Source: Nitrospirota bacterium (lineage in GTDB: Bacteria; Nitrospirota; Thermodesulfovibrionia; UBA6902). Taken from it: a DNA stretch of 35,862 nucleotides. The translations under genes were made by a program, and so were the position numbers. The notes beneath the pieces are model-generated. The model was not told the origin of the DNA, searched no databases, and was given only the letters and a program-made list of their open reading frames with translations. Location: assembly GCA_016213945.1 (NCBI GenBank), contig JACQZF010000068.1, forward strand, positions 1-35,862. Reading direction: 5' to 3'. Positions 22,877-25,241 of the stretch are shown here, one piece after another; position 1 is the first letter of the stretch; every line of letters begins with the position of its first letter.

Positions 22877-24079
22877 ATGATCGACATCCTCAAGATCCTG
22901 TCAGTGCTTGCTATTATGGTGTTTCTCCTGAAAAGGCGGTGGAACCTCGGATTGGTAATGGTCCTCTCATCCGTTATCCTCGCCTTCTTTTATTTGCTTG
23001 CGCCGCTCGATTTCCTGAAGGCCTTTTATTCCGGGTCAACGGACAAAACAACCATCAGCCTGATCGCGGCCCTTCTCCTCATAAGGATTTTTGAGAATGT
23101 CATGAGGAAGAACGGAATCATGCAGCAGATGATGGATTCATTCAGGGGAGTTGTCATGGACAGGCGGATACTGATGGCGTCAATGCCAGCGCTTATCGGG
23201 CTTTTGCCCTCAATGGGAGGGGCGCTCTTTTCCGCGCCCATGGTGGACGAGGCGTCAAAAAGCATCGACATCTCCCAGGAAAAAAAGGCATTCGTAAATT
23301 ATGTGTTCAGGCATCCCTGGGAATTTATACTACCTCTTTACCCCGGTGTGATCCTCGCGTCCGCCATTACTTCGTATTCTCTGAGAGAGTTAATGCTTGC
23401 CAATCTGCCGTATGCCCTGTGCCTTGTGATCGGAGGGACTGTCTGGGGATTGAGAGGCATTGGGATGCAGAGAGAGGGTTTCAAGAAAATATCCGGGCCC
23501 GGGCTGATGAGCTTTCTTCCCTTAGCGATCATTTTGATTATGGTAATAGCTTTTCATCTGAATTTATCGATCTGCCTCAGTGCGGTGATTATCGGCATGT
23601 TTGTTGTGTTCCGGTATACCATGAAAAATATTTTCCAGAGTTTGAGGGAAGGTTTTTCATGGGAGATCGTGTTGATCATACTCGGAGCGATGACCTTCAA
23701 GGCGGTGCTCAATTATTCAGGGGCGGTAGCAAACATAAGTAAATTTTTCGTTGAAGAGGGTATTCCCGTATTGCCGGCGCTTTTTTTCCTGCCGTTCATT
23801 TACGGCCTGCTCACAGGGCTCACTGTCGGTTTTGTAGGAAGCACATTTCCGATTATATTAGGGCTTGAGAATGCGCATCACATCGGCGCTATTTCCTTTG
23901 CATTTGCCTCAGGATATGTAGGAGTGCTTTTATCCCCGGTCCATCTCTGCCTTGTTTTGACAAGGGAATATTTCAAGGCCGCAATGAACGGCATTTACAG
24001 AAAGACCATAAAGGTGTGTATATTGATCATGCTTGCCGCTCTGGCAGAGTATCTTATTTCAAGCCGTTACTGGCAATGA
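22877..24079 (+). CDS. DUF401-family membrane permease
   Basis: A 400-aa hydrophobic protein with about ten membrane segments. It matches my memory of the DUF401 family, distant relatives of the gluconate/citrate-type ion transporters: LLPSMGGALFSAPMVDEA, a RHPWEFILPLYPG block and the GFVGSTFPIILG loop. The substrate is unknown, probably an organic anion. The re-entrant GLLPSMGGALFS and GLTVGFVGSTFPI loops look like the two inverted transport hairpins. No transport partner is adjacent. Confidence 0.85.
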   Translation: MIDILKILSVLAIMVFLLKRRWNLGLVMVLSSVILAFFYLLAPLDFLKAFYSGSTDKTTISLIAALLLIRIFENVMRKNGIMQQMMDSFRGVVMDRRILMASMPALIGLLPSMGGALFSAPMVDEASKSIDISQEKKAFVNYVFRHPWEFILPLYPGVILASAITSYSLRELMLANLPYALCLVIGGTVWGLRGIGMQREGFKKISGPGLMSFLPLAIILIMVIAFHLNLSICLSAVIIGMFVVFRYTMKNIFQSLREGFSWEIVLIILGAMTFKAVLNYSGAVANISKFFVEEGIPVLPALFFLPFIYGLLTGLTVGFVGSTFPIILGLENAHHIGAISFAFASGYVGVLLSPVHLCLVLTREYFKAAMNGIYRKTIKVCILIMLAALAEYLISSRYWQ

Positions 24080-24128: not shown

Positions 24129-25241
24129 ATGCTCAAGAAATTATGGCCGTTATTCCTGCTCGCGTTTATAATTTTAACGGTCTTGCACGTACGTTACTAC
24201 GCAGACTATCAAACGACACTTTTACCCGGCGTATATATTCAGGACGGCGCATCTGATCTGAAGGCAAATCATTGGTCTGTCCCGGTTGTATTTGACTGGG
24301 ACAGTGACGGAAAAAAGGATATTCTGATCGGCAACAGCTACACGGATGAAAACAAACTTGAGCATGGGTATATAAGTTTTTATAAAAATACAGGCACTGA
24401 CGCCGCGCCTTCTTTCAACGGTCCGGTTTATATTCAAACCTGTGATAAAGAGTGCTCGCCTTTAAATACCGCCGCCTTTGGCTGACTTGGTTCGTATCCC
24501 GCAGTCGTGGACTGGGACAATGACGGAAGACATGATCTGCTGGTCGGCGATACCAACGGAAATGTCCAGGTATTCCTGAATACAAACAGCAATTCAGATC
24601 CGGTTTTGTCAGGCGGTAATTTTATTCAGGCAGGCGGAGTTGATCTTAAGGCCGAAGGCAGGGCCGCACCTGATGTTGACGACTGGAACGGCGACGGGAA
24701 GAAAGACCTGATCATCGGAAATAGAGAGGGAAATATCCAAATTTATATTAACAAAGGCACTGACCCGGAACCTGTTTTTGATTCATCATATCTCCTGCAG
24801 GTGGACGGCAGGGATTTTACTGTCAGCGGCAGGGCTGCTCCGAGAGTAGCGGACTGGAACAAGGACGGCTTAAGAGACCTCCTGATTGGAGATTTGGAAG
24901 GATATGTCTATTATCTTAAAAACGCAGGGACGAACAGCGCGCCTGTGTTTAAAAGGGCTGAAAAGCTTTTCCTTAGAAACGGCGATTTCCTCCGGTATCC
25001 TGATCCAAACGGCGACCCGCGCTCGCGGCTTTATGTTACGGACTGGAATAACGACGGGCGTGACGATATCGTGCTGGGGGGGAAAGACGGTAAAGTCATG
25101 CTGTATCTTGCGGCGCAAAAGCCGTCATATTCACCCGCTGTTTTTGTAAAGAGAATATTTTTTCAGATACAGGAAAGGGCCATTAAATTCAGAGACAGAG
25201 CCAAAGAGAAGATTAAGGGATTGAAGAAGAGATTGATTTAG
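24129..25241 (+). CDS. Exported VCBS/FG-GAP repeat protein with an in-frame TGA (possible selenoprotein)
   Basis: One 370-codon frame, interrupted only by TGA at codon 119 (24483-24485). An N-terminal signal anchor (about 5-21) precedes five Ca2+-binding VCBS repeats with D-W-(D/N)-x-D-G motifs starting at residues 56, 128, 185, 242 and 305, so both sides of the TGA belong to one protein. The TGA sits in a repeat-specific insert, CDKECSPLNTAAFG-TGA-LGSYP, near C105 and C109, where a cysteine pairing partner would be expected. A bacterial SECIS-like hairpin follows at 24499-24516. Options are selenocysteine, a Cys-to-stop point mutation, or a sequence error. Without readthrough the product is a useless 118-residue fragment. 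Function is unknown; it is likely an extracytoplasmic propeller. Confidence 0.72.
24499..24516 (+). promoter_or_regulatory. SECIS-like hairpin downstream of the in-frame TGA
   Basis: CC (24499-24500), a single bulged G, then CAGTC (24502-24506), apical loop GTG (24507-24509), then GACTG (24510-24514) and GG (24515-24516). This is a 7-bp stem with one bulged base on the 5' side and a loop starting G-T. The loop G is 22 bases after the TGA; in E. coli fdhF the key loop G/U are about 20-21 bases after. It fits the general bacterial SECIS pattern, although the bulge is G rather than U. Confidence 0.45.

Follow-up and report, generated by a model that had tools for sequence, protein, structure and literature searches.

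A probable exported beta-propeller selenoprotein family in the Nitrospirota and other bacterial phyla

The gene at 24129-25241 on the forward strand of the window (the whole 35,862-nucleotide stretch of DNA analysed here) very probably encodes a selenoprotein in which the UGA at codon 119 (24483-24485) is read as selenocysteine (Sec); we put the probability of this reading at roughly 0.95. The predicted product is a five-bladed FG-GAP beta-propeller of 370 residues that is likely to be exported. The original prediction that this TGA specifies Sec is strongly supported by homologues with TGA or Cys at the site, by the sel genes of the source genome, and by constraint and covariation in the downstream hairpin. 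The recoding, the conservation of the site, the RNA constraint and the fold of this gene are all supported computationally. We judge that it represents a new family of exported beta-propeller selenoproteins, widespread across several bacterial phyla, within a known kind, the bacterial selenoproteins.

With bacterial selenoproteins such as FdhA the gene shares an in-frame UGA with a SECIS-like hairpin downstream, homologues with Cys, and selA, selB and selC in the genome. A 2026 review catalogues 119 families of prokaryotic selenoproteins (PMC13188914); compared by name or domain, none of those listed is an FG-GAP/VCBS family, and the protein studied here differs from them in being a probably exported repeat protein with an FG-GAP/VCBS domain. 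The models of NCBIfam 20.0, which include selenoproteins, gave no match above cut-off save for the T9SS tail in some relatives, and a search of the open-licence literature (subscription papers and preprints lay outside it) found no mention of VCBS or FG-GAP selenoproteins.

The in-frame UGA in Nitrospirota orthologues

Retranslation agrees with the earlier description of 24129-25241 as one frame of 370 codons, here followed by a terminal TAG (25239-25241), that is broken only by the TGA at codon 119, which lies in the context CDKECSPLNTAAFG-(TGA)-LGSYPAVVDW. The two cysteines that had been seen near the TGA are Cys105 (24441-24443), kept in most Nitrospirota orthologues, and Cys109 (24453-24455), placed by translation and alignment; together they form a C-x3-C motif ahead of the putative Sec. 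TGA is also an ordinary stop in the same DNA, terminating the upstream DUF401 gene at 24079. An Rfam scan of the whole window returned nothing, and the gene neighbourhood gave no functional clue, with only local groups of neighbours, one of which lies next to housekeeping genes (pdxJ-like, NAD kinase-like and TsaE-like, named by eye).

Searching the read-through protein against 37 genomes of the same family recovered full-length orthologues, of which nearly all have a single TGA in frame. It falls at the identical column in 20 of the 21 that were aligned, within a shared context C-x3-C...G-U-[LQM]-G-[SA]-Y-P-x-V-V-D-W. Across 230 genomes of the class, orthologues were confined to one order, and three further genomes were added, all with the TGA. 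In total, 23 of 24 Nitrospirota orthologues, from 22 genomes and with 43-87% identity to the study protein, have TGA at the codon-119 column, and the stop codon at the site is never TAA or TAG. The carriers are MAGs of the Nitrospirota/Thermodesulfovibrionia.

The sole Nitrospirota exception is G016 (L030), which has GGA (Gly) at the site in a genome that keeps selB and tRNA-Sec; this looks like a recent loss of the TGA. The L030 hairpin is still intact despite the GGA. In the orthologue of G006 (L032/L087) a further TGA interrupts the frame 14 codons past the first, at a conserved Gly of an Asp-rich loop, and may be an error, a sign of decay or another Sec codon; the hairpin in L032 is weakened. 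L037 and L046 (G032:C150) are a single orthologue split by a frameshift 3' of the TGA, either a pseudogene or an assembly error.

TGA and Cys forms in other phyla

We surveyed 84,980 species genomes, and the counts from this survey rest on 80 of 212 related loci. In these 80 loci, at least 23 genes at 18 or more loci outside the Nitrospirota have an in-frame TGA in the homologous loop, in lineages that include WOR-3, Fermentibacteria/Sabulitectum, Planctomycetota and others. Among in-frame TGAs in homologous domains at the same 80 loci, 44 of 45 lie within the Sec motif, a count that includes four rows with a shifted alignment column, one of them the second row of the L123 gene. The predominant form outside the Nitrospirota is G-U-C-x-G (Sec-Cys, or UC), with two C-U forms (L115, L116) and one G-U-N form (L123). 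In the UC forms the Sec stands one residue earlier than the Nitrospirota Sec119, and an adjacent Cys or a C-x3-C is present in nearly all forms.

Forms with cysteine in place of Sec are of two types: a single Cys aligned to Sec119 in four Planctomycetota/Limisphaerales proteins (L096, L097, L100, L101), and Cys-Cys (CC) aligned to Sec-Cys in three Bacteroidota proteins (L127, L140, L152). The Planctomycetota UC proteins L124 and L129 match the Bacteroidota CC proteins L127 and L140 with E values of 1e-33 to 1e-36, over the full length and gap-free at the site. Since all 32 aligned proteins have Cys or Sec at residue 119, the Nitrospirota Sec occupies a position that is Cys elsewhere. Alignment of homologues around codon 119, proposed with the original prediction as a check on it, has thus shown either TGA or Cys there, Cys-Cys being the form in genomes where selB and tRNA-Sec are absent.

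A former Cys codon turned into a stop by recent mutation or by sequencing error (that is, a pseudogene), the competing view offered with the original prediction, would suit a lone stop in an otherwise intact frame with a well-conserved downstream product, but it is ruled out because TGA, never TAA or TAG, occurs independently across many genera and phyla, including nearly every Nitrospirota orthologue and all six paralogues on one contig.

These six tandem paralogues, at L095, each have the TGA at the homologous loop, and the locus is likely to be a hot spot of selenoprotein duplication. Across L095:1-8044 (MAG PL23a_bin.125), the TGA is followed by a Cys codon in all six, which also have a T9SS-like tail. 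Beside another TGA form, on the opposite strand, lies a further FG-GAP gene of like kind (L128:4557-5309, minus strand), whose frame opens with GHAATPNPQVVDW.

The SECIS-like hairpin and the Sec machinery

The predicted SECIS-like stem-loop (24500-24515) starts about 14 bases after the UGA and has the form CAGUC[GUG]GACUG. Bases 24502-24506 pair with 24510-24514 around the loop GUG at 24507-24509, with an outer C/U-G pair (24500-24515) and one 5' bulged base (24501). The loop G lies at +22 after the TGA, as originally predicted (base 25 when the U of UGA is base 1). Published rules for bacterial SECIS elements call for a stem of 4-16 bp, a loop of 3-9 nt with G in its first two positions, a spacing of 16-37 nt and an MFE of -7.5 or below (PMC13188914); the study hairpin, with 5 bp, a GUG loop, 21 nt spacing and a segment MFE of -10.4, falls within all of these. 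The segment of orthologue L021, at -7.0, is just short of the -7.5 limit, and in several orthologue segments the lowest-energy fold is another structure.

The SECIS of E. coli fdhF has G-U in a small apical loop and one 5' bulged base. The present hairpins resemble it in the apical-loop G-U, the spacing and the single 5' bulge, but they have a longer upper stem (5-9 bp) and a variable bulge, and the study hairpin overlaps the conserved VVDW codons. The earlier worry that the bulged base is G here and U in fdhF carries little weight, as this base varies between hairpins (A, U or G).

It had also been feared that the hairpin might be a chance structure. The conserved TGA column and the 44 of 45 in-frame TGAs within the Sec motif, both described above, make the observation more than chance, and for the hairpin itself there is constraint at the RNA level and covariation in other phyla. 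Synonymous conservation, scored per codon column above the amino-acid baseline in 23 Nitrospirota sequences, places the hairpin codons +7 to +9 (GTC GTG GAC) at ranks 1, 2 and 4 of 228 columns, and the top three-codon window, at the hairpin, scores 0.38 vs 0.12 for the next separate window. The Val codons of the hairpin are GTC in 22 of 23 sequences and GTG in 20 of 23, and Val usage is mixed elsewhere in the gene. The stem (C20-G32, R21-U31, G22-C30, U23-A29, C24-G28) is intact in 22 of the 23, and base 21, a synonymous third position, is A or G throughout.

Because variation in this short Nitrospirota stem (5 bp) is one-sided, with A or G facing U, compensatory support comes from the other phyla, whose hairpins are mostly 7-9 bp long with loops such as GGU, GGC and GUU. 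We aligned 14 UC-type segments by hand in codon register, excluding L099 and L105, where the stem is shifted by one base. In these 14 hairpins 92.9% of cells pair and both sides change in four of seven pairs; their covariation score was reached by none of 500 shuffles, and slid versions pair at no more than 42%. We read these patterns as RNA-level constraint on the hairpin, with covariation outside the Nitrospirota. We rejected an alternative, CCAC[GGUC]GUGG, as the common form of the Nitrospirota hairpin; its pair 19-26 is U-U in 7 of 23 sequences and its pair 18-27 is broken in 6 of 23.

One of the hairpin codons could also be a start. If the UGA terminated one protein and translation restarted at the GTG of codon 127, two proteins would result; this GTG is kept in 20 of 23 orthologues, and an ORF caller begins an ORF there. 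Codon 127 is nevertheless GTT in three orthologues, L099 and L105 are without a GTG at the hairpin, and the Cys- or Gly-form homologues are single frames. Such a restart would moreover split the propeller, with no signal on its second part, and we consider it very improbable.

The machinery for reading UGA as Sec is in place. The presence of sel genes was a further check suggested with the original prediction, and selA (625.8 bits), selB (360.7) and tRNA-Sec (73.9) were all found in the source genome, within 5 kb on contig C18. The same genome encodes an FdhA whose UGA stands in the usual NCARV-U-HAP context ahead of a GGU-loop hairpin (read by eye); this FdhA gene, at L155:1400-2300 on the minus strand, is a natural positive control. 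Across the 37 genomes of the related family, selB scored above cut-off in 31 and tRNA-Sec was found in 24. The search found no tRNA-Sec in the TGA-form genomes G005, G008, G015 and G035, all draft or incomplete, and ARAGORN found none around selB of G006, G008 and G035. The tRNA-Sec gene of G006, a one-contig genome, is located elsewhere (L164:1501-1620) and has a run of N after base 53; since this gene is interrupted by an N gap, a tRNA-Sec missed by the search does not equal absence.

Among UGA-form genomes of other phyla, selB is above cut-off in 13 of 14 (the remaining one has a fragment at a contig edge) and tRNA-Sec is present in 13 of 14. Neither selB nor tRNA-Sec was found in the three Bacteroidota CC-form genomes (0 of 3). 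The single-Cys genomes need not be Sec-free, because tRNA-Sec is kept in 4 of 4 and selB in 3 of 4.

These results bear on whether the UGA might be suppressed by some other amino acid, through Trp or Gly recoding or leaky read-through. The Gly at the site in one orthologue is compatible with this. Against it, normal genes in this DNA, such as the one upstream ending at 24079, terminate at UGA; homologues elsewhere align a Cys to the site; the hairpin conforms to the rules for bacterial SECIS elements; and selB and tRNA-Sec co-occur with the TGA form. Insertion of a residue other than Sec is thus highly unlikely.

Fold, export and possible function

The five VCBS repeats first described for this protein stand as five blades in the model, while their assignment is refined to a five-bladed propeller of FG-GAP_3 repeats (PF13517; E 3.6e-21, 76 bits vs a Pfam cut-off of 26.9). 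AlphaFold2, given a 32-sequence alignment with Sec entered as Cys, produced a model with pLDDT 94.8. It begins with a hydrophobic N-terminal helix, a putative membrane helix or signal anchor (residues 2-27, 24132-24209), and continues with blade 1 (residues 48-85, 24270-24383), blade 2 (123-149, 24495-24575), blade 3 (180-206, 24666-24746), blade 4 (237-263, 24837-24917) and blade 5 (300-326, 25026-25106), ending in an amphipathic C-terminal helix (336-369, 25134-25235). Sec119 falls in the loop ahead of the inner strand of blade 2. Corresponding loops in blades 3 to 5 of the model carry Arg178 and Arg235, which precede blades 3 and 4, and Arg300, at the start of blade 5; these are conserved in 23, 29 and 26 of the 32 aligned proteins. 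For the UC-type L122 protein the model (pLDDT 86.6) again shows five blades, with a beta-rich tail domain after them.

VIA-align resolved a five-bladed match, its best hits being five-bladed enzymes of GH62, GH43 and GH130 (Z 15-19 across some 250 residues); most Foldseek matches were partial, to larger propellers and at low TM. Likeness to these glycosidases and phosphorylases lies in the overall five-bladed fold, which does not show a common function. Identity is about 10%, the study protein has FG-GAP repeats, and it has no Pfam glycosidase match. Its weak sequence matches are to integrins and CRTAC1, and it shares DxDxDG-type repeat blades with FG-GAP proteins (PF13517, PF01839; integrin alpha, CRTAC1). 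Integrins, however, have seven propeller blades, whereas the study protein has five, with a Sec/Cys loop before blade 2.

A C-terminal sorting signal of the PEP-CTERM or T9SS kind is absent from the study protein, which ends in its helix. Some relatives have PEP-CTERM-like tails instead, and T9SS tails score above the TIGR04183 cut-off in L095 and L115; because relatives carry such tails, an extracytoplasmic location is likely.

We propose that the ribosome reads UGA 119 as Sec by means of SelB, tRNA-Sec and the downstream stem-loop, and that the N-terminal helix would take the product through the inner membrane, to fold outside the cytoplasm as a propeller stabilised by Asp-rich, probably calcium-binding, loops. 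Sec would then sit on the loop entering the inner strand of blade 2, at the end that lines the central funnel in five-bladed propeller enzymes, with conserved Arg on the equivalent loops of blades 3 to 5. The fold and the Arg conservation suggest that a selenol and basic residues could together form, at the funnel, a site that may act on a small, possibly anionic, substrate, Sec serving in selenol/thiol redox chemistry or as a selenol ligand. Cys105 or Cys109 nearby, or the adjacent Cys in other lineages, could be its resolving partner. We rate a redox or ligand function for Sec119 at about even odds.

A selenoprotein could instead use its Sec without catalysis, in a structural selenenylsulfide (Sec-Cys or Cys-x3-Cys...Sec) that would stiffen the loop with which the propeller binds carbohydrate or protein. 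Adhesins and lectins are frequent among FG-GAP propellers, and the integrin matches, the Cys pairing partners available in nearly all forms and the survival of one orthologue with Gly are all in keeping with such a role. Sec in a purely structural bond would be unusual, however, and the Sec loop appears to lie at those ends of the strands where five-bladed propeller enzymes have their active sites. We regard the structural role as rather unlikely and place redox or ligand chemistry ahead of it.

We hold a broader proposal tentatively and at slightly less than even odds: a multi-phylum class of secreted selenoenzymes on the five-bladed FG-GAP propeller, in which a Sec-Cys or Cys/Sec loop lies close to a funnel lined by Arg, with Sec at either of two neighbouring positions by lineage and with varied export (membrane anchor, PEP-CTERM, T9SS). 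If so, it would bring a catalytic selenol to a scaffold on which none is known so far. Most characterised selenoproteins have a thioredoxin-like fold (PMC13188914); in contrast, the present family appears to be one of exported beta-propellers, whose relatives often have surface-sorting tails, and it points to chemistry that depends on selenium and takes place beyond the cytoplasm in uncultured bacteria. It also offers testable Sec/Cys pairs across phyla, including the six tandem copies in one genome. As automatic annotation normally stops genes at UGA, members of the family are probably mis-annotated as truncated or split genes.
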